Assembly: GCA_944392515.1 (NCBI GenBank)
Contig: CALXWV010000007.1
Coordinates: 1 to 45,309, forward strand
DNA from: an uncultured Clostridia bacterium
Lineage (GTDB): Bacteria > Bacillota > Clostridia > TANB77 > CAG-508
Reading direction: 5' to 3'
DNA length: 45,309 nucleotides
Position numbers and translations under genes: made by a program. This document shows positions 8,640-38,716 of the stretch, in pieces (position 1 is the stretch's first letter; each line of letters opens with the position of its first letter). The notes under the pieces are model-generated. The model had not been told where the DNA came from. It made no database searches and worked only from the letters and a program-made list of their open reading frames with translations.

Positions 8640-9530
8640 TTATTGTTTCGTTTCTGATAAATATTTTTTCATCATATATCCACTACCATCAGTTACATTA
8701 ACTTTATACCAATCTCCTTCTTCCCCATTTACAGTTACTGGTGTATTTAGACCAACACTTGCAACAGTATCTGATGAGGTTGTTGCTTGTGATCTAATAT
8801 ATACAGCATCAACATTTACATACATTGTTTTTGGATAGTTTGAACTAATTTCATTTTGAATGTTATTAGAATTATTATCTTCATTTGAAGTAACATCATT
8901 ATTGCTATTTGAATTATTTATATTCTCATTATCTACTTCATTAGTTGCAGTATTATTATTTGAATCAGTATTACTATCTTCAATATTATTTTTATCAACA
9001 TTAGAATTATTTTCATTGTCATTAATGTAATCATTATTTGTAGTAGCTGTATCCGTTCCATTTATATTATCTAAAAATATCCATCCTGAGTTAGTATCTG
9101 TTTGTATATATGCCCATTTTCCATTGATAGATACTACTAATGCATCAGTATTAGCAGTAATATTTTCTAAAACTGTAGAATTTAGTAATGGTAATATATA
9201 TAATTTAGAATCTTTATTTACAATACCATTTGAATTAGCTTTAGGAGGTATACTTGTATTTGCAACAGTTTCTTTTATAGATACATATTGTTTGCTTACA
9301 TAACCTGAAAAATCTTGATATTTAATTTTATACCAATCTCCTTCTTCTTCAATAATTTCAAAACTAGCATCTTTAGGTAATACTGTTACAATATTTGATG
9401 AAGTACTAGGAGTCTCTCTAACATTTAAAAATTCAGTATCTCTTAATGTACCAGTACTTGCAAAGCAATAACTTATAAATATTAAAGAAAATATTAGAAG
9501 TATTAATAATATATTTAGTATTTTTTTCAT
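8640..9530 (-). CDS. Secreted protein with three bacterial SH3 domains
   Basis: A signal peptide or anchor (about residues 5-24) precedes an SH3b domain (about 25-82, with LNVRETPSTSSNIVTVLPK and GDWYKI). A second, more diverged SH3-like repeat lies at about 105-155. A linker of roughly 70 residues is made almost wholly of Asn, Asp, Ser, Thr and Glu. A third SH3b domain is C-terminal (about 235-296, with VYIRSQATTSSDTVASV, GDWYKV and SGYMMKKYL). Such repeats bind peptidoglycan peptides. There is no catalytic domain. The Asn-rich linker is typical of surface proteins in AT-rich clostridia. The promoter at 9593-9621 is preceded by a WalR box, consistent with a role in cell-wall homeostasis. comEC follows after a short gap. 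Confidence 0.85.
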   Translation of the reverse strand: MKKILNILLILLIFSLIFISYCFASTGTLRDTEFLNVRETPSTSSNIVTVLPKDASFEIIEEEGDWYKIKYQDFSGYVSKQYVSIKETVANTSIPPKANSNGIVNKDSKLYILPLLNSTVLENITANTDALVVSINGKWAYIQTDTNSGWIFLDNINGTDTATTNNDYINDNENNSNVDKNNIEDSNTDSNNNTATNEVDNENINNSNSNNDVTSNEDNNSNNIQNEISSNYPKTMYVNVDAVYIRSQATTSSDTVASVGLNTPVTVNGEEGDWYKVNVTDGSGYMMKKYLSETKQ

Positions 9531-9592
9531 TTAATTCCTCCAAAAGTATATATATTCATTTATAATAACCAATTTTTAATTTTCTCATAATA

Positions 9593-9621
9593 ATATTATT
9601 ACTTATACCTAATAAAGTCAA
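9593..9621 (-). promoter_or_regulatory. Sigma-A promoter of the SH3-domain gene
   Basis: On the minus strand TTGACT (9616-9621), 17 bases, TAATAT (9593-9598). The -35 box lies 7 bases downstream of a WalR-type direct repeat, a geometry that suits activation. Confidence 0.65.
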
Positions 9622-9628
9622 GACATTT

Positions 9629-9645
9629 GTAACAATTTTGTAACA
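9629..9645 (-). promoter_or_regulatory. Predicted WalR binding site
   Basis: The minus strand reads TGTTAC-AAAAT-TGTTAC. This matches the published WalR (YycF) consensus TGTWAH-N5-TGTWAH at every defined position, with the required 5-base spacer. It sits directly upstream of the SH3-domain gene promoter. A WalR-like regulator is encoded at 29921-30670 in the same window. Confidence 0.7.
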
Positions 9646-9675
9646 TTAGAGTTAATTATTATTTAGAAAATTTAA

Positions 9676-9709
9676 ATAAAAAAACAAGGTAAACCAACTA
9701 GTGTTTACC
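9676..9709 (-). terminator. Terminator of tuf
   Basis: On the minus strand GGTAAAC (9703-9709) and GTTTACC (9688-9694) form a 7-bp stem with an 8-base loop, followed by TTG and a run of seven or more T. It lies 15 bases past the tuf stop codon. Confidence 0.85.
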
Positions 9710-9723
9710 CTGCTTTTATATTA

Positions 9724-10926
9724 TTACTCAATTATTTCTGATACAACACCGCTGCCAACTGTTTTTCCACCTTCACGAATAGCGAATCTTAATCCTTGTT
9801 CGATAGCGATTGGAGTAATTAATTCTATTGTCATATCTACGTTATCTCCAGGCATTACCATTTCTGTTCCTGCTGGTAAATCAATTAATCCTGTAACGTC
9901 TGTTGTTCTGAAATAGAATTGTGGTCTATATCCGTTGAAGAATGGTGTATGACGTCCACCTTCTTCTTTTGTTAGAACGTATACTTGTGCTTTGAATTTT
10001 GTATGTGGATGTATTGTTCCTGGTTTTGCTAGAACTTGACCTCTTTCTACTTCTTCTCTTTGAATACCTCTTAATAGAACACCGATGTTATCACCAGCTT
10101 CTGCTTGATCAAGAGTTTTTCTGAACATTTCGATACCGGTAACAACAGTCTTTTTCTTGTCTTTTGAAAGACCTACTATTTCAACTTCGTCAGATAATTT
10201 TAATGTTCCTCTTTCTACTCTACCTGTAACAACTGTACCTCTTCCTGAAATTGTCATAACATCCTCAATTGGCATTAAGAATGGTTGATCAACTGGTCTT
10301 TCAGGTGTTGGGATATAGCTATCAACAGCATCCATTAATTCTTTAATGCATTGATATTCTGGAGCATCTGGATCTTTTGATGTAGACTCTAATGCTTTTA
10401 ATGAAGATCCTTTAACTACTGGAATTTCATCTCCAGGGAAACCATAGCTTGAAAGTAAATCTCTAACTTCCATTTCAACTAGTTCTAGTAATTCTGGATC
10501 ATCAACCATATCACATTTATTTAAATATACAACAATATATTTAACACCAACTTGTCTAGCAAGTAATATATGCTCTCTTGTTTGAGGCATTGGACCATCA
10601 GCTGCTGAAACAACTAATATTGCTCCATCCATTTGAGCAGCACCTGTAATCATGTTCTTTACATAGTCTGCGTGTCCTGGGCAGTCAACGTGAGCATAGT
10701 GTCTTTTATCTGTTTCATACTCAACGTGAGCTGTGTTAATTGTGATTCCTCTTGCTTTTTCTTCTGGTGCACTATCAATTGCACTATAGTCTTCGAATTG
10801 TGCTTGTCCTTTTAAGCTTAGCCATTTTGTAATAGCTGCTGTTGTTGTTGTTTTACCATGATCAACATGTCCGATTGTACCAATGTTAACGTGTGGCTTA
10901 CTTCTTACAAATTTTTCCTTAGCCAT
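9724..10926 (-). CDS. tuf: Translation elongation factor Tu
   Basis: This GTPase delivers aminoacyl-tRNA to the ribosome. The G motifs are intact: [18 protein letters not shown]. The RGITI switch I segment, the domain 2 region ([13 protein letters not shown]) and the C-terminal domain 3 are also intact. At 400 residues it is full length. AAGGAGG lies ahead of the ATG. It is the last gene of the str cluster but is separated from fusA by 232 bases that contain a separate promoter and a long leader hairpin. It can therefore be expressed independently of rpsL-rpsG-fusA. Confidence 0.98.
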
Positions 10927-28513: not shown

Positions 28514-29905
28514 TTATTTACTTTCTTTTTTCTTTACAGGTATTTGTATTACTACTTCAGTCCCATCATCAACTTTGCTCTTTATATTAATGCTTCCATT
28601 ATTCTTTTCTATTATTTCTTTAGCTATTGAAAGACCAAGACCTGTCCCTCCAAGTTGTCTTGAGCGTGCTTTATCTACTCTATAAAATCTCTCATATATT
28701 CTTTCCAAATCATTTTTAGGTATTCCTATACCAGTATCTTTTATTTTCACATATGCATCATTATGTACATAACCTACATAAATATCTATTTTTCCACCAT
28801 CTGGTGTATATTTAATACTATTGCTTAAAATATTTAATATTACTCTTTCTATGCCATCTTTATCTGCATAAACACTTGGTACATCAGCTGTTACAAAACA
28901 GCTAACTTCTTGATTTTTCTTTTTTATTTCTATTTCAAATTTTTCTTTGCATAGTTTAGCAAGCTCACCTAAATCAAATTCAGTTGGCTTACTTGTAACT
29001 CTATTACTATCATACTTAGATAATGTAAGTAAATCTTGAACTAATTTTTCCATTCTGTCTGCATTATCATCTATTACATGTAAGAAATGTTTTTCTGTTT
29101 CTTTATCACAATCACCATCAAGAAGTGTTTCAGAATAACCCATAATGGATGCAATTGGTGTTTTTAATTCATGTGATACATCTGCTACAAATTCTTTTCT
29201 CATATTATCTAGTTTTACATGTTCTGTAATATCTTGTATAACTACCATTACTCCTGCGGGCATATCTAAATCATCTCTATATGGTATAAAAAACAAGCTC
29301 ATAGTGCCTTGTTCATTTTCAATCTTCTTTTCTGATGAAGTCCAACTGTCTAAGTATATTATTTTTTCCATATTAATATCTTCAAATTTGCCAAATATAG
29401 ATTTAAAAGAATTATCATTATTTTTTAAGCCCAGTAACCTTTTAGCTGCTGGATTTATATAAGTAACTTTTCCATCCATGTTAAAAGTTATTACCCCGTC
29501 AGTCATATGCTTTAATATTGTCTCTTTTTGTTTTTTTTCACTATTTACATCTTTTAAATTTTGCTTTAATTCATCAACAATTTCATTAAATGACTCTGTA
29601 AGTTCATCACTAGAAGCTACTGTATCAATATTATTAATGTCTGCACTAAAGATTGCTTTTTTAGCACCTTTTAGCATCTTTGACATTGGTTCAATATATT
29701 TTTTTACTTCTATAAAAGCTATTACTATTGTAAAAATAGAAAATAGTATTAAAGATGTAATTGATACTGCCTTTATTTGCGAAATATATAAAGAATCAAT
29801 TCCTGCATTTATTAATACACGTGAAAAGTATATTGTAAAAAAGCATATTATTGCTATTGAAACAATATATAGCATGAGTATTATTTTCATTTGAAAATTT
29901 TTCAC
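28514..29905 (-). CDS. walK: WalK/PhoR-like sensor histidine kinase
   Basis: The kinase has 463 residues. Two membrane helices (about 8-28 and 43-66) flank a very short outside loop of about 15 residues, so it has no extracytoplasmic sensor domain. A HAMP-like linker is followed by a PAS domain (about 115-225, starting near MTDGVITFNMDGKVTYIN). The HisKA domain has phospho-acceptor H in SHELKTP (about 245). The ATPase domain shows the N box ILNILSNSIKY, DTGIGIP and GTGLGLS. The order of domains fits WalK, but the missing outer PAS domain differs from Bacillus WalK and is closer to VicK or PhoR. It follows walR by 15 bases. Confidence 0.88.
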   Translation of the reverse strand: MKNFQMKIILMLYIVSIAIICFFTIYFSRVLINAGIDSLYISQIKAVSITSLILFSIFTIVIAFIEVKKYIEPMSKMLKGAKKAIFSADINNIDTVASSDELTESFNEIVDELKQNLKDVNSEKKQKETILKHMTDGVITFNMDGKVTYINPAAKRLLGLKNNDNSFKSIFGKFEDINMEKIIYLDSWTSSEKKIENEQGTMSLFFIPYRDDLDMPAGVMVVIQDITEHVKLDNMRKEFVADVSHELKTPIASIMGYSETLLDGDCDKETEKHFLHVIDDNADRMEKLVQDLLTLSKYDSNRVTSKPTEFDLGELAKLCKEKFEIEIKKKNQEVSCFVTADVPSVYADKDGIERVILNILSNSIKYTPDGGKIDIYVGYVHNDAYVKIKDTGIGIPKNDLERIYERFYRVDKARSRQLGGTGLGLSIAKEIIEKNNGSINIKSKVDDGTEVVIQIPVKKKESK

Positions 29906-29920
29906 GAATTATGCCTCCAA

Positions 29921-30670
29921 CTATTTAGATTCTATATAATATCCTACTCCTCTTTTTGTAATTAAGATTTTAGGATTTGCTGTATTTTTTTCTATTTTCT
30001 CTCTTATTCTTCTAATTGTTACATCAACTGTTCTAATATCTCCATAATATTCATAACCCCATACTTTTTCAAGTAGGTCTTCTCTTGTAACAACTTGTCC
30101 AGGTTTTTGTGCTAAGTACCTTAGAACCTCAAATTCTCTTCTAGTTAAATCATTAACTTTTTGTCCTCTTGCCTCAACTTCAAATTTATCTAAGTCTAAT
30201 TTTAAAGTTCCAACAACTATTTTATTACCTTTATTTGATGAACTAGTTAAATCTTGGTCAGTTTGATCTACTTTACGCAAATTAGCTTTTACCCTAGCAA
30301 TTAGTTCTCTAACACTAAAAGGCTTAGTCATATAATCATCTGCACCAATTTCTAGTCCTAATATTTTATCTATTTCTTCCCCTTTTGCTGATAACATGAT
30401 TATAGGAGTTTTACCTAATACTTGTCTTACTCTTTTGCACACAGTAAGGCCATCTGCTTTTGGTAGCATTACATCCAATAAAATTAAATCAGGATTTTGT
30501 GAAAGTGCAAGTGATACTGCTTCTTCTCCATCACCTGCTGTAACTGTATTATATCCTTCTTTTTCTAGGTTAAATACTAATAAATCTCTTATTGAAGGTT
30601 CATCATCTACTATTAATATTTTCTTTTTTGAATCATCATATATATTTGTGTTTGACATGGTATTTTGCAC
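29921..30670 (-). CDS. walR: WalR-like OmpR-family response regulator
   Basis: The 249-residue regulator has a receiver domain (acidic pair D22/D23, phospho-acceptor D66 in LILLDVMLP, and MLSAKGE with the conserved Lys). A winged-helix domain follows, with recognition region VWGYEYYGDIRTVDVTIRRIREKIE and TKRGVGYYI. This is very close to Bacillus WalR, more so than to PhoP. The start is GTG at 30668-30670, six bases after AAGGTGGG; the next ATG is too far from that site. It is the first gene of walR-walK-lepB-holB-ricT. A matching WalR box lies upstream of the SH3-domain gene in this window. Confidence 0.9.
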   Translation of the reverse strand: MQNTMSNTNIYDDSKKKILIVDDEPSIRDLLVFNLEKEGYNTVTAGDGEEAVSLALSQNPDLILLDVMLPKADGLTVCKRVRQVLGKTPIIMLSAKGEEIDKILGLEIGADDYMTKPFSVRELIARVKANLRKVDQTDQDLTSSSNKGNKIVVGTLKLDLDKFEVEARGQKVNDLTRREFEVLRYLAQKPGQVVTREDLLEKVWGYEYYGDIRTVDVTIRRIREKIEKNTANPKILITKRGVGYYIESK

Positions 30671-30813: not shown

Positions 30814-33800
30814 TTAAAACTCAACTTTTACTTCAAAGTTTCCTTCATTTGCTAATTTTATCTCATCTACTTTTTTACCATCTAAGTACATTTGAAGATT
30901 ATCTCCTGTTATATTTGAAATCTCTTTAGACTCTCCATTTTCCTTTTTATTTTTTTCATTTGCTATTTGTTTTCTTTCATACTTTATATTATATATTGCT
31001 TTTTTCCATTTAAAAGTAACTTCAAAATTTGACCAATCATCTGGAACACATGGTTTTATTTTTAAAATTTCATGATGAATTTTTAATCCTAAAATATATT
31101 CAGTTTGTAGTGTAAAAAGCCAACCGCTTGAACCTGTATACCAGGTCCAGCCTCCTCTTCCGGCAAATTCATTTTCACTATATATATCCGCTTCTATTGC
31201 ATAAGGTTCTACCTTATATTTAATAGCCTGTTCTTCTGTTTTAGCATGTTCTATAGGATTTATCATCTTATATATTTCTATAGCTTTTTTTGGTCTATTT
31301 AATATACTTTCTGCAATTGCTCCCCATATTGCTGCATGTGTATATTGTCCTCCATTTTCTCTCATGCCTTTAGCATATGAAGCTATATATCCAGGTTTAA
31401 ATTCTTCATTTTGAAATGGTGGTGCTAATAATTTTACCAAATTATTTTCTCTATCTACTAAATAGTTTTCCATACTATCCATTGCTATATATTTTTTATC
31501 ATTATCTCCTGCATTAGATATTATTGACCAACTTTGAGAAATACCATCTATTTTGCATTCTTTATTTACTGCACTACCTAAAACTTTACCATCATCTGTA
31601 GTTGCTCTTTTAAACCATCTACCATCCCAGCCTTCAGTATTTAAATTTTTCTTAAGTTTTTCTGCTATTTTAATTAATCTTTCATATTCATCTGAATTTT
31701 CATCTGTGTCAATATTTTTTACATCAACCATTCTTTTTTCTTCTTGCATTGCTATTGCAGTTTCTTTATTTGCAAATCTTGTTATATATTTAGAATACTC
31801 AGCAAATTTAATTAAGATTGAATACAAGAAAAATCCAAGCCATACACTTTCACCTATTCCTTTTATGCCAACTTTATTCATGCCATCATTCCAATCACCG
31901 CCATTTATCTTTGGAAAGAAGTCATAGTTTAAAGATTTATTTATACCTCTCATGCAGTGATGGTATATGCTTTCTTTTTCTTCAGTAAAAGTAAACTTAT
32001 CCATATAATCATGTTCGTTTTCTTTAAGCTTTCTTCCTTTTACATATTCTACTTCTTCATTTAAAATTGAATAATCTCCAGTAAAATCAATATAAGTAAT
32101 TACTGCATATGCAAGCCATAGCATTGTGTCACTGTATCTAGCTCTTATTCCAAGATTATTTTCATTATGCCACCAATGAAGGACATCTCCTTCTTTAAAT
32201 TGATGTTTAGCATGAAGTAATATCTGATTTTTTAATATATTGCTATCTAGATATTTAAGAGCCATAGCATCTTGCAATTGGTCTCTATATCCTATTGCAC
32301 CTCCTGATTGATAAAATCCTGTTTTAGCAAATTTTCTTGATGCTATTGTTTGATATAAAGCCCATCCATTTTGAAGAATATCAAAAGAAGTGAGCGGTGT
32401 TTTTGCTTTTGCAATTTTTACTTTATCCATCCAATATTTTTTTACTTCTTCTAAAGCTTCATTTTCTTTTCCTAAATACTTTGTTCCTATTTCCATACAC
32501 TCTGTTTCAGTTTTTTCTGCACCTAATATTAAAGTTATATCTTTAGTCTCTAATGAATCAATCTCTACATTTATTTGTATTAAATTATTTGTATAATTTA
32601 TTGGTTCATTACTTGTTATATATGCATAATAATTTGGATTAATATTATTTTTTATTAATAATAAATTATAATTTTCTTTAAATTTAAAGTTTACAAATCT
32701 ATCTTTTCTTTCACCAAGTAATAAATCAACACTATAATAAATAATTATTTTTTTCTTTTTTAAACTTGTATTTTTTAGACTTAATTTACTTATTTTTAGG
32801 CTATCATTTACTGGAACAAATATTGTTAATTCTTCTTCTATATCTTTATAAATATGATTAAAGCAAGAATATCCAAAACCATAAGTTATATGGTAATTAC
32901 CTTCATCTGCTAAAATATTAGGACTAATTGAAAAGTACTCATCATTTTCTTTAAGAATAATTAATTCTGATGGCTTATCTAAAAGTGCATCATTTGAAAA
33001 TTCTGTTAATCTATTTGTTTTACAGTTATAATACCAAGTGTATCCACCTAAAGCTTCTGTTGTAAGTGTACCAAATTTATCATTTGCCATTATATTGCAC
33101 CATACAGCAGGAGTCTTATTATGCTTATTTACTATTATGTGATATTCATTTCCATCTTCAGAAAATCCACCATAACCATTGTAGTATAAAAGCTTACTTG
33201 TATCTATCTCAATATTTTTTGAAGATTTACCTTTATTTAAGATTATTTTATCTTCTTTCTTTTTCTTTCCTAATTCTTTCATTTGGATATTAATTGATCC
33301 TAGTTTTGAATCAAGTATTAAATTTGCTCTAGCTTCTATTACTCTTTTATCTTCTAAAGGAATATTTATAAGAGTTTTAAAATTACTTTGTATTTCATTT
33401 TTAGATAAAATAATAATATCTACTAATATATTTTTCATATTAAAATATTCTTTTGCTTTTGCAATTTCTTTCATTAAATAGGTATCATTTTTATCCCTTA
33501 GTTTTACTAATAATATTGGATTATCTCCAGAAATTCCATACTTCCATAATTTTTCAGTAGATAAATCTAATTCTATTTTATTTTCTTTATGATCTGGGAA
33601 TAGTAATTTTTCTAGCATCTTTTGATACAAATCTATATCTTTTCCTTTTATATCTAAATATCTTGCTTCTGCAAAACTGTGACTCTTAGAAATATCAAAA
33701 ATTGTATTAAGTCTTTCAGATTTTATATATTCTTTTAAGTTCTCAGTAGCTTCCTCTTTGCTATCTCCTGCAGAATTTATAAGAAATACATTTTTTACCT

Positions 33801-36800
33801 CATCAGGTTTTACATTAACTAATCTTCTCATTGCTATAATTGGTTGTATAGTTTGAACTATTCTTTTAGATAATTGAGCCGAGTTTACTACAGCATCTGG
33901 TATATCCATATTAATATTTTCAAACTTTTTATTTATTTTATCTTCATAATTATTTCTTAAAGCTTTATTCTCAACATCAAAATTTCCTCTTCCAACAAAT
34001 TTTTCTTTATCTATTTCAAATTCTAAATCTCCTTCTTCATATACTAAATTTGTGGCAAGAAAGCTTTTTTGCCTATTTTCTTCTCTTAGCCTTCTTGTTA
34101 TTAAAATACCATCATCTATTTTTTCATAGTCTATAAACATTTTATTAAAAGTTGGATGTGAATAAAATGCTGCGAAATCTGAAAGTAATATATCCATATA
34201 ACTTGTTACTTCAAGAGTTACCGGTGTTATTCCAGTATTTTTTATACTTATTTTTCTAATTTCTATTGGCAAATTAGGAACAATAGTAACTTTCATAGTT
34301 ATCATTAAATTCCCATCTTGTATAACTACTTTATCGTCTGATGTAGTAAATAATATTTTATTTTTATCTGATACAGTATCATATATTTTTTTAGAGTTAA
34401 TGTCTTTAATATACACATGAATATTATTACTTATAATATCATTACCAAATTTAGTATAACTACTTCCATCATCTTTCATCACAATAGAGTATTTTTCATT
34501 TGCTAAAACATTAATTCCTGATGTTCTTTCAGTGTATTCCTCATAATCTTTATATTTAATTTTTTCAACCTTTTCCTTTCTTTCTTTTGTAGTAATCATA
34601 TCTTTAGGCATTTTTTCTTCTAACAAAATTTCTGTTCCTTCAATTTGTGCATTTCTAATAAATCTTTTTTGAAATATATTGTTATTCATTAAATTATTTA
34701 TTGAAGAAAGAATTAAGCCTTGATGATGTGCCATAAATGTTTTATTAACAGCCTTTTTAGGTTTATAATCTATGGACTCATAAAATCCATATTTCCCTGT
34801 TCCAGAATTTTTATCTATTAATTTTAGATTCTCCACCGCTTCTTTTGGATAAAATGTAAGTGCCATTGCAGTAGAATAAGGGCTGATTACTATTTCATCA
34901 TCTAAATCTCTCTTTAAACCTAGCCAAGGAACACCAAATGTTTTATATTGATAATTGCCTTTAAAATCTTTTGTATTATATGCTGACTCAGATATTCCCC
35001 AAGGTATACCTAACTTTTTAGCATATTTTCTTTGACTTAGTATTGAAAATCTACAAGATTCATCTAATAAAGATGTTTCATAAGAAGGAATATTAATGCA
35101 AGGCATTAAATATTCAAAAGCTGTTCCGCCCCAAGATATTAAACCTTTATATAATCCCATTTTAGTCAATAGTCTTGAGCAATTATTCCAATGTTTGCTA
35201 GGTACATCTCTTTTAGCTATAGCAATAATACTTGTCTGTCTAGCTTCTGATGCTAACAAATCATAATATGAATTAACTAAAGTATTTGCTTCTATATTAT
35301 ATCCAACTGAAAATAATCCAATTTTATAATCATATAATTTGCTAAAATCTGTTTGATTAATTAATATATCTATTCTTTTTACTAAGCTAATAATTTGATT
35401 ATTTAATTGTTCATCAATCTTATCTTTATTATTTTCTTTATTGTTTTCTTTTGTTTTATTTGCTTTTACTTCTATCAAAAATTGCTTAACTGTATATAAA
35501 TATCCGATTAGATTTCCACTGTCTACTGATGAAATAAATAATGGTTTAACCGCATCAAGTGTATAGATATTATACCAATTATATAAATGTCCATTCCACT
35601 TTTCTAAATCTTCAATTGTTGTTATAGTCTTTTCAATCATATCTATAGTATCTTTTAAATTTTCAAACTTTAGGTCATAAGCTGACATCATTGCCATTAA
35701 CGATAATCCTATATTTGTTGGAGATGTTATTGCTGATTTTTTTGCCTTTCTATCTGCTTGATAATTATCTGATGGAAGATTATTTACCATATTATCTTTA
35801 AAATATTGCCAGGTTCTTTTGGCTATATCTAATAAAAATTCTTTATCTCCATCTTCTAGGCTGTCTGAAAGTATCTTTTCATTTTTCACACCTAATTTAT
35901 ACATTATAAGTGGTGCTAGAAGCCAAATTAATCCTAAAATAAAAGACAATATGCAAAGTAAATTAATATTATATAAAATAACTCCAAAAGAAATTGCTAA
36001 TAAAACTATCCCAGCAAAAACATTAGGAAGCATTGATAAATAATATCCACTTACTGTTTTTTTACTACTTTTTTCAGCATCATTTGAAGTAGTCCATTCC
36101 AGCATAAAATTATGTGATATTTTCATTCTATATATACTTTTTATAAATGCATTTATTTCTAGATAAGCCATGTCTGGCAGAATTGAAAGTTTAACTAAGA
36201 ATCTGTAAATTGCACCTTGCACTTTAGTAAATTCTTTAGAAATTAGCCTTTGCTCTTCTGTTTTATAATTCATAAAAATATCTAATAGTTCTAATATACT
36301 AGGAAATGCTAAAAATATAATTGCAAGTAAAAAAAACAAATTAAAATTAGCTTTAGTAAAAATTGCAAAAGCAAAGCAAATTACTATTAATAATAACTCA
36401 AAAAAATCTTCTAAATCTCTTGCTAAATTATCCAAGATTTTATATTTTGATAAATTATTTAATGTAGAATTAAGCCATGGTAGTATTTGCACATCTCCTC
36501 TTATCCATCTATGCTTTCTTTTTCTATATGAGATATAATTTGATGGATAGCCATCCATTAAAAGTATATCTGATGCTAAGCCACATCTTAAATAACTTCC
36601 TTCTAATAAATCATGACTAAGTACACTATTTTCAGGTATTGTATCTTTTAAAACATCATAAAAAACTTCTACATCATATATCCCTTTTCCCGTATAAATG
36701 CCTTCATCAAAATTATCTTGATAAACATCTGAAATTGCATTTGTATAAAGGTCAGTTCCACCTGCTCCTGCAAAAAGTATTGAGAATATTGTTCTTCTTT

Positions 36801-38700
36801 CATCTTTTATATCTACACTAACCCTAGGTTGAATTAGACCATGACCTGAAACTACAGTATTAGTAATCTTATTTACTTTAGGTTTATTTAAAACATGTGC
36901 AATTGTTCCAACTAACTTTTCTGCTTGATTCATCGATAAATTTGTATCACTATCTATTGTTATTACATATTTTATTTTAGGTAAATTATTGCAAGTATTT
37001 ACCCAAAATGGATTTTTGCCAGTTACTAAATACTCATTTAGCTGAGTTAAAATACCTCTTTTTCTTTCCCAGCCCATGAAACATCTTTCACTTGTAGACC
37101 ATTCTCTTTTTCTATATATAAAATTAAAAACATTCCCGTATTTATTGTTTAATTCTTCAGTGCACCTTTTACCAACTTCAGCAATTTTATCATCCTTTTT
37201 ATTTTTTTCACTTTTTTCACTAGTGCAATCTCCTAAAAGTGTAAAATACAAATTATCACTTTTATTAGCTAAATAGTAAACCTCAAGTTTATGAAAAAAA
37301 TTAGTTACATCCTCTTCATCTTTTAAAAGTGCTGGTATTACACACATAGTAGCATATTCTTTTGGAATACCTTTTTCTTGAAAATCTAATTTAGGAAGAA
37401 CTTTAGGTTTTACTATTTTACTTAGTATATATTGTAAAAATTTTGTTACAACATTTTGAATAGGTATAAAACATAAAAGCCCTAATATCCAAGATTTTGT
37501 GCATAGAAGTATAGTTAATGCAATTGTTAAAATATAGATGCTAAATACATATATTTTAGACTTAGTTTTATTAGAAATAAACTTTACTTTTTTATTTAAT
37601 AAATTACTTAGAAATTCATCTTTTCCATCACCTATAAGGTAATAACCCACATGGGTATTTTTTTGGCTTTTACTATTTTTTGTATTATTCTTCTTAGTAT
37701 TACATAACTCTAGACACTTTTGAGTAATATACACTTCAGAAAGCTTTGTTTTCTTTGCAATTTCTTCAATAGCTCCTCTGTAATTTGCTTTACTATGATA
37801 GTCCATTATTTTATACACTTTATCTGAGTTTAGCATTTTTTCAACAATACTTGTATTTTCAAAAATAGATAAAATATCCATTCTAGAAATAGCTTTAATA
37901 CTAAGTATGGAGTTTTGCATAGACACACGTTTTAAGGCAATATCAAAATGCTCTTTATTAGTAACTTCGCTTAAAGTCATTCCATTTTTCTGTACTTGTT
38001 CTTCTAAAATATCTAAAAAAGGAGCAGTTTCTTTTCCATAAGTTTTAAGTCTATATGTCATATATTCAATAAACGGATATAAATCACAATCAAGTTTAAT
38101 CTTCTTTACATTTTTGTTTTCTAATATTCTTTGTACCATATTTTCAACTTTAAACTTTTGCATTTGAGAAACAAATATCTTTTCACAAATCCCCCTAATT
38201 TTTTCAATAATAGAAATTTGTAAAAACACTCCTATATTCCATATCTCATCCATATATAGATTTTTTTGAGTTTGATAGCTATTTATATATTCAGTAAGTT
38301 CTCCTTCATCTATTCTTCCATCTGTATTCATAACGATTTCATTAGATAAAACAAATACTCTTGCAAATCCCGCATTTACACCATTTGCAATTCTAGGAAA
38401 TTTCTCATATTTACTTTTGCTTAATGTTTTTTGCAGAATTTTTACTGTATTTTCTATCAAATAATAATTATCTAAAAGCCACTCTCCTGCTGGATGTATT
38501 GGAATGCCAAGTTTTACATGCTGATTTAATAAAGTATATATTAATGATATATACTCAAAATTATCCAATACCCTAGGAATTGGATAAGTGTTAATATCTG
38601 ATTTATCTTTAATAATACTATCTGCAGCAAATTTTGCTAAATACTCTTTTAATAACTTTTTATCTAGTACAATTTCTTTTGTATTTAAAATTTTATACAT
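30814..38700 (-). CDS. Cyclic beta-1,2-glucan synthase-like giant protein (GT84-GH94)
   Basis: A 2628-residue polytopic enzyme resembling NdvB/ChvB. In order: a soluble N-terminal region (1-380); membrane helices (about 383-430); and a GT2/GT84-like transferase (IDSDTNLS about 583, HDLLEGSYLRCG, RKHRWIRGD about 730). More membrane segments follow (about 770-815 and 897-940). A glucoamylase-like domain has YLMPCINIPSYETSLLDES, GISESAYN and MAHHQG (about 1325). Beta-rich linker domains lead to a GH94-type phosphorylase domain (GGAIGYRDQLQDAMAL, GGDWNDGMN about 2270, GGWTWYTGSSGW about 2520). Known homologues build, cyclise and trim beta-1,2-glucans. The ATG at 38698-38700 is preferred; the upstream GTG abuts the GGGGAG site. 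The actual product in this organism is inferred. Confidence 0.87.
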   Translation of the reverse strand: MYKILNTKEIVLDKKLLKEYLAKFAADSIIKDKSDINTYPIPRVLDNFEYISLIYTLLNQHVKLGIPIHPAGEWLLDNYYLIENTVKILQKTLSKSKYEKFPRIANGVNAGFARVFVLSNEIVMNTDGRIDEGELTEYINSYQTQKNLYMDEIWNIGVFLQISIIEKIRGICEKIFVSQMQKFKVENMVQRILENKNVKKIKLDCDLYPFIEYMTYRLKTYGKETAPFLDILEEQVQKNGMTLSEVTNKEHFDIALKRVSMQNSILSIKAISRMDILSIFENTSIVEKMLNSDKVYKIMDYHSKANYRGAIEEIAKKTKLSEVYITQKCLELCNTKKNNTKNSKSQKNTHVGYYLIGDGKDEFLSNLLNKKVKFISNKTKSKIYVFSIYILTIALTILLCTKSWILGLLCFIPIQNVVTKFLQYILSKIVKPKVLPKLDFQEKGIPKEYATMCVIPALLKDEEDVTNFFHKLEVYYLANKSDNLYFTLLGDCTSEKSEKNKKDDKIAEVGKRCTEELNNKYGNVFNFIYRKREWSTSERCFMGWERKRGILTQLNEYLVTGKNPFWVNTCNNLPKIKYVITIDSDTNLSMNQAEKLVGTIAHVLNKPKVNKITNTVVSGHGLIQPRVSVDIKDERRTIFSILFAGAGGTDLYTNAISDVYQDNFDEGIYTGKGIYDVEVFYDVLKDTIPENSVLSHDLLEGSYLRCGLASDILLMDGYPSNYISYRKRKHRWIRGDVQILPWLNSTLNNLSKYKILDNLARDLEDFFELLLIVICFAFAIFTKANFNLFFLLAIIFLAFPSILELLDIFMNYKTEEQRLISKEFTKVQGAIYRFLVKLSILPDMAYLEINAFIKSIYRMKISHNFMLEWTTSNDAEKSSKKTVSGYYLSMLPNVFAGIVLLAISFGVILYNINLLCILSFILGLIWLLAPLIMYKLGVKNEKILSDSLEDGDKEFLLDIAKRTWQYFKDNMVNNLPSDNYQADRKAKKSAITSPTNIGLSLMAMMSAYDLKFENLKDTIDMIEKTITTIEDLEKWNGHLYNWYNIYTLDAVKPLFISSVDSGNLIGYLYTVKQFLIEVKANKTKENNKENNKDKIDEQLNNQIISLVKRIDILINQTDFSKLYDYKIGLFSVGYNIEANTLVNSYYDLLASEARQTSIIAIAKRDVPSKHWNNCSRLLTKMGLYKGLISWGGTAFEYLMPCINIPSYETSLLDESCRFSILSQRKYAKKLGIPWGISESAYNTKDFKGNYQYKTFGVPWLGLKRDLDDEIVISPYSTAMALTFYPKEAVENLKLIDKNSGTGKYGFYESIDYKPKKAVNKTFMAHHQGLILSSINNLMNNNIFQKRFIRNAQIEGTEILLEEKMPKDMITTKERKEKVEKIKYKDYEEYTERTSGINVLANEKYSIVMKDDGSSYTKFGNDIISNNIHVYIKDINSKKIYDTVSDKNKILFTTSDDKVVIQDGNLMITMKVTIVPNLPIEIRKISIKNTGITPVTLEVTSYMDILLSDFAAFYSHPTFNKMFIDYEKIDDGILITRRLREENRQKSFLATNLVYEEGDLEFEIDKEKFVGRGNFDVENKALRNNYEDKINKKFENINMDIPDAVVNSAQLSKRIVQTIQPIIAMRRLVNVKPDEVKNVFLINSAGDSKEEATENLKEYIKSERLNTIFDISKSHSFAEARYLDIKGKDIDLYQKMLEKLLFPDHKENKIELDLSTEKLWKYGISGDNPILLVKLRDKNDTYLMKEIAKAKEYFNMKNILVDIIILSKNEIQSNFKTLINIPLEDKRVIEARANLILDSKLGSINIQMKELGKKKKEDKIILNKGKSSKNIEIDTSKLLYYNGYGGFSEDGNEYHIIVNKHNKTPAVWCNIMANDKFGTLTTEALGGYTWYYNCKTNRLTEFSNDALLDKPSELIILKENDEYFSISPNILADEGNYHITYGFGYSCFNHIYKDIEEELTIFVPVNDSLKISKLSLKNTSLKKKKIIIYYSVDLLLGERKDRFVNFKFKENYNLLLIKNNINPNYYAYITSNEPINYTNNLIQINVEIDSLETKDITLILGAEKTETECMEIGTKYLGKENEALEEVKKYWMDKVKIAKAKTPLTSFDILQNGWALYQTIASRKFAKTGFYQSGGAIGYRDQLQDAMALKYLDSNILKNQILLHAKHQFKEGDVLHWWHNENNLGIRARYSDTMLWLAYAVITYIDFTGDYSILNEEVEYVKGRKLKENEHDYMDKFTFTEEKESIYHHCMRGINKSLNYDFFPKINGGDWNDGMNKVGIKGIGESVWLGFFLYSILIKFAEYSKYITRFANKETAIAMQEEKRMVDVKNIDTDENSDEYERLIKIAEKLKKNLNTEGWDGRWFKRATTDDGKVLGSAVNKECKIDGISQSWSIISNAGDNDKKYIAMDSMENYLVDRENNLVKLLAPPFQNEEFKPGYIASYAKGMRENGGQYTHAAIWGAIAESILNRPKKAIEIYKMINPIEHAKTEEQAIKYKVEPYAIEADIYSENEFAGRGGWTWYTGSSGWLFTLQTEYILGLKIHHEILKIKPCVPDDWSNFEVTFKWKKAIYNIKYERKQIANEKNKKENGESKEISNITGDNLQMYLDGKKVDEIKLANEGNFEVKVEF

Positions 38701-38716
38701 AAAAAATTCCACTCCC

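Follow-up and report, generated by a model that had tools for sequence, protein, structure and literature searches.

The window, by which we mean the whole 45,309-nt stretch of DNA analyzed here, carries on its minus strand a gene for an SH3-domain protein, the target of a WalR-type direct repeat that lies just upstream of a recognizable promoter (Table 1). SH3_3 domains were identified by domain search in the 296-aa product, in agreement with the original prediction of an SH3-domain gene behind the box; the same search found no catalytic domain in the protein, and its N-terminus is, by eye, hydrophobic and signal peptide-like. We infer that this protein acts at the cell wall. The upstream neighbor on the same strand is tuf, encoding EF-Tu, whose strong terminator (9717-9680) separates it from the SH3 gene, so that box and promoter probably serve the latter. 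The tuf-SH3 gene order (8640-10926) seems to be retained in some relatives (L015, L038), where the SH3 gene is preceded by a readable tuf end. A response regulator and its partner histidine kinase are encoded elsewhere in the same window.

Table 1. Features of the SH3 locus and of the regulator genes in the window (positions refer to the whole stretch).
Feature	Position	Strand	Basis or remark
SH3 gene, target of the box	8640..9530	-	296 aa, SH3_3 domains; domain search
GGAGG	9542-9538	-	start codon ATG of the SH3 gene at 9530
-10 element TAATAT	9593..9598	-	4/6 consensus bases; spacer 17
-35 element TTGACT	9616..9621	-	read from the sequence; retained in orthologs
Putative WalR-type box TGTTAC-AAAAT-TGTTAC	9629..9645	-	sequence reading, pattern match, orthologs
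Same box on the opposite strand, TGTAAC-AATTT-TGTAAC	9628-9644	+	orientation retained in 7/7 boxed promoters
Intrinsic terminator of tuf, upstream of the box	9680..9717	-	strong terminator
tuf (EF-Tu), upstream neighbor	9724..10926	-	same strand as the SH3 gene
Partner histidine kinase (PAS, HisKA, HATPase), WalK-like	28514..29905	-	domain and family models
WalR response regulator, presumed binder of the box	29921..30670	-	249 aa; family models, structure matches

Direct reading of the minus strand reproduced the predicted arrangement, with the exact consensus box followed after 7 nt (AAATGTC) by TTGACT-N17-TAATAT. The consensus TGTWAH-N5-TGTWAH is matched on both strands of the site (the plus strand at 9628-9644 reads TGTAACAATTTTGTAAC), because TGTWACA is almost its own reverse complement. 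Within the window, the pattern has 4 matches versus 1.02 expected, a number reached in 2 of 100 shuffles; two of the four represent the SH3 site, read once on either strand, and the remaining pair (37433 and 44272) is intragenic. The probability that the 190-nt intergenic stretch contains an exact match by chance is 1.2%.

Thirty homologous SH3 upstream stretches were compared, some of them incomplete and two from outside the genus. The exact box is present in seven of them, the window's included, and missing from 23. In each of the seven boxed promoters, it is positioned 6 nt (counted from its TTACA end) before TTGACT, and the form retained is TGTAAY-N5-TGTAAY, in opposite orientation to the gene. 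This modifies the original prediction in one respect: the strand quoted there does match the consensus, but its form TGTTAC-AAAAT-TGTTAC is fully matched in the window only, and the orientation kept in all seven promoters is that of the opposite strand. In a tree built from walR, ftsA, and sepF, the seven boxed genomes fall into a single clade (100% support); for an eighth clade member (G003), no SH3 match was found in the 73%-complete assembly. The boxed promoters also share a -10 element, TAATAT or TAAGAT, with 4 of 6 consensus bases in 7/7 cases, versus 5 or 6 of 6 bases in 20 of the 22 scorable boxless SH3 promoters (TATACT in 18/22). Presence of the box together with a poor -10 fits a site that was gained once and may be used for activation, a poor -10 being the expected trace of a switch to activator dependence, with the seven promoters amounting effectively to a single evolutionary event. 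At the level of sequence comparison, the box before the SH3 gene is confirmed as a real, conserved site of the WalR type.

Counted genome-wide and irrespective of its position relative to a promoter, TGTWAH-N5-TGTWAH was weakly enriched (50 matches versus 39 for the reversed control), and we dropped this unphased count as deciding evidence because it was too weak. Several intergenic matches in the window's genome are followed by a -35 element at a fixed distance. Across the 31 genus genomes, the phased pattern TGTWAY-N5-TGTWAY-N10-TTGA gave 39 matches versus 0 for the reversed control; 35 of these come from genomes other than the one that had suggested the pattern, and a few of the 39 look like chance when judged by their context. 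Strong matches to a sequence-only model of this N10-TTGA class were found almost only in the close clade. The class of opposite orientation, to which the SH3 site belongs, was represented by 28 matches versus 9 for the control. We regard conservation at the SH3 promoter in seven genomes, combined with phasing to the -35, as the decisive evidence for a real site, as far as sequence can tell.

The same motif recurs at the promoters of cell-division genes. Upstream of ftsA, which is followed by ftsZ, 2 to 4 half-sites with 11-bp spacing precede the -35, and exact TGTWAH-N5-TGTWAH matches occur at 19 of 24 ftsA promoters in the genus (0.15 expected) and at 17 of 22 in the family and order (0.21 expected), with G036, G040, and G044 being order members that have no box at ftsA. 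For sepF, the exact motif was found at 25 of 27 promoters in the genus (0.27 expected). Half-site gaps other than 5 yielded few or no matches, the main exception being a gap of 3 at ftsA in 7 genomes. The window's own genome (G000) has an array of 11-bp-spaced TTACA/TGTAA half-sites upstream of ftsA (C17, L238) and an 11-bp-spaced half-site array upstream of sepF (C3:53682-53810, L290), as do orthologs in both cases. The deeply conserved targets of the predicted network are the cell-division genes ftsAZ and sepF. Activation of ftsAZ by B. subtilis WalR is attributed to Fukuchi 2000, as cited in PMC5717166, and in M. tuberculosis the related MtrA binds a 9-nt direct repeat spaced by 2 nt, with sepF as one of its targets (PMC6265350). 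As ftsAZ and sepF match known WalR/MtrA targets, the motif marks promoters that would be expected of a WalR/MtrA-family regulator. The promoters of walR itself lacked the exact motif (0 of 21), and autoregulation of walR was dropped as a candidate on this ground.

The regulator encoded in the window is best matched by the YycF model of NCBIfam (320 bits, with a cut-off of 340), followed by RpaB (245 bits), MtrA (241 bits), and PhoB; with 223 bits for the latter versus 320 for YycF, it does not group with the PhoP/PhoB class. For its DNA-binding domain, the top structure matches are of the VicR/YycF/WalR type and rank above all others. WalR was found in 29 of the 31 genus genomes, and the recognition helix DIRTVDVT(I/V)RRIREKIE(K/R)NT is the same in these 29, which bears out the WalR-like recognition helix noted from the sequence alone. 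Among the four OmpR-type regulators found in the 77%-complete bin, only WalR belongs to the WalR/PhoP class; the other three look VanR/ResD-like by eye. Naming the kinase is less straightforward, since the WalK and PnpS models tie at 356 bits (cut-off 725) and 353 bits (cut-off 400), both below cut-off, so that the name WalK rests on the partner WalR. Between its two N-terminal hydrophobic helices, the kinase seemingly has, by eye, a short loop only. No walH, walI, or walJ neighbors accompany the pair, the next genes being those for signal peptidase I, holB, and ricT. Such neighbors are not universal, and streptococcal VicRK is not known to come with walH/I. The gene immediately upstream of walR (30814-38712, same strand) encodes a 2632-aa, cyclic-glucan-synthase-like protein with GH94 and glucoamylase domains.

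The original prediction had called the pair WalRK rather than PhoPR, citing the box. With respect to the regulator, the designation stands, and for the kinase it is left with the tie described above. The choice against PhoPR is supported by the protein itself, by its being the lone WalR/PhoP-class regulator found in the 77%-complete bin, and by the division targets; the WalR reading rests on these three because the motif alone cannot separate WalR from PhoP. The B. subtilis PhoP box consists of similar TTWACA half-sites at a spacing of about 11 bp.

A genome-wide scan for the motif upstream of cell-wall hydrolase genes, the typical WalR targets elsewhere, had further been proposed as a check. 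No hydrolase gene was recognized behind any match in the window's own genome, 10 downstream proteins having been searched against Pfam and the rest inspected by eye. NlpC/P60, the only hydrolase family searched across the genus, was found in 15 of 31 genomes and was dropped as a test set for the motif for this reason.

WalR control of the network marked by the box is the best reading of these sequence patterns. We consider it likely that the box is a site for the WalR of 29921-30670, that it would activate the SH3 promoter with its weak -10, and that it was gained once in the subclade. Two WalR subunits would occupy the two half-sites, one helical turn apart and just upstream of the -35, and would help RNA polymerase to initiate where the -10 by itself is too poor to work well; phosphorylated WalR would in this way raise the output of the secreted SH3 protein. 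The relatives would express the same gene from a boxless, stronger promoter, and the SH3 site, presumably acquired a single time in the genus subclade, would have been added late to an already existing WalR-type network with ftsAZ and sepF as deep targets. The link proposed at the outset between the WalR-type site and the regulator of the same window has gained support from the conserved and phased box, the weak -10, the motif shared with ftsAZ and sepF, and the VicR/YycF/WalR-type DNA-binding domain.

Several observations argue against binding of a real box by a different regulator of the OmpR family, such as a subclade-specific one or a PhoP-type protein that the incomplete bin lacks: the motif recurs at ftsAZ throughout the order and at sepF throughout the genus, both known WalR/MtrA targets; WalR is present in nearly all genus genomes with an invariant recognition helix; and the bin's other three regulators look VanR/ResD-like by eye. 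We judge this alternative unlikely, while acknowledging that PhoP boxes look alike, that each close-clade genome has 4-11 WalR-similar regions, and that a further regulator could be missing from a bin of 77% completeness. Strong module matches, moreover, come mostly from one clade, whereas WalR occurs genus-wide, and the WalR reading has against it the absence of the box at walR itself and of a recognized hydrolase gene behind a match in the own genome. An attempt to tell WalR from a clade-specific regulator by co-occurrence was given up, as the motif-rich genomes are essentially one clade and provide too few independent events. A second possibility is repression of the SH3 gene by WalR bound at the box, or a role of the half-sites as a distant operator that does not activate directly. 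With the box at a constant distance upstream of the -35, neither over nor downstream of the promoter, and with the weaker -10 of boxed promoters fitting activation instead, such a role is quite improbable, even though B. subtilis WalR represses some genes (iseA, pdaC; PMC5717166) and the SH3 protein is no autolysin. Finally, AT-rich intergenic DNA might match the pattern by chance, and the weak genome-wide excess of the unphased pattern could be cited in favor of this reading; conservation of the position in seven genomes and phasing to the -35 disfavor it so strongly that we dismiss it.

In the subclade, a fixed box-promoter module precedes FIST-domain proteins and a coiled-coil protein family, in one genome a glucan-phosphorylase-like gene, and many proteins that combine a pilin-like N-terminus with a C-terminus of the FGE type. 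In one genome (G028), a reverse transcriptase gene follows the pilin/FGE gene behind the module, and here and in G019 a template repeat differs from the 3' end of the target gene by mismatches that fall on template adenines in 23/24 and 17/18 cases, respectively. Judged by the repeats, these adenine-biased mismatches bear the signature of a diversity-generating retroelement. Apparent diversity-generating retroelements with pilin/FGE targets behind the module lie in L328 (987-2237, 3350-4357, and 4440-4576) and L329 (1964-2099 and 4127-4262). In the window's genome, boxes precede pilin-like proteins with an FGE-type C-terminus (C2:21819-23225 and C3:40210-41499) and a protein with a pilin-like start (C13:20023-22936); a reverse transcriptase was not found in this 77%-complete genome. 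It also has three overlapping box matches on both strands (C42:7415-7442) before a leucine-rich-repeat protein with a signal peptide-like start. A 186-aa protein without a Pfam match (C19:20427-21060), with orthologs in L126, L128, L129, L131, and L132, has in six genomes a box of opposite orientation at a distance of 4 nt from TTGA.

We tentatively suggest, with a confidence that falls somewhat short of even, that the genus network may have been extended from ftsAZ and sepF to lineage-specific surface and signaling genes via the fixed module TGTAACAAAAATGTAAT-N10-TTGA, including pilin/FGE proteins, some of them retroelement-diversified. If true, a cell-wall regulator would also time the production of hypervariable surface proteins, and confirmation of WalR control over the pilin/FGE targets would tie cell-wall sensing to retroelement-driven surface variation.

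For a clostridial order that has received little study, our analysis provides a WalR-type regulon that is concrete and open to testing, with conserved WalR/MtrA-type arrays at the ftsAZ promoters of the order and at sepF in the genus, and with an SH3 box whose recruitment seems to have gone along with a weakened core promoter. The predicted network in this group of low-GC Clostridia would comprise the SH3 gene, ftsAZ, sepF and, in some relatives, hypervariable surface proteins. Among known systems, the B. subtilis PhoPR pair is set apart in that no PhoP-class regulator was recognized in the bin and, among the promoter families compared (ftsA, sepF, walR, and the SH3 gene), the deeply conserved targets are division rather than phosphate genes. 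The MtrA site of Actinobacteria (PMC6265350) has the same 11-bp repeat period, sepF as a target, and a related regulator (241 bits with the MtrA model); it differs in belonging to another phylum, in that mycobacteria are without ftsA, and in that the regulator described here is closer to YycF/WalR (320 bits). The WalR (YycF/VicR) site of Bacillus, Staphylococcus, Streptococcus, and C. difficile is the same TGTWAH-N5-TGTWAH, an 11-bp direct repeat, likewise located just upstream of the -35, with ftsAZ among its targets and a regulator of the same family. Unlike in those systems, the deep targets here are ftsAZ and sepF, with no hydrolase recognized behind an own-genome match, the SH3, FIST, and pilin/FGE targets are lineage-specific, and the SH3 box is oriented opposite to its gene. 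The signal is of a known kind; what is new is how far the network reaches.
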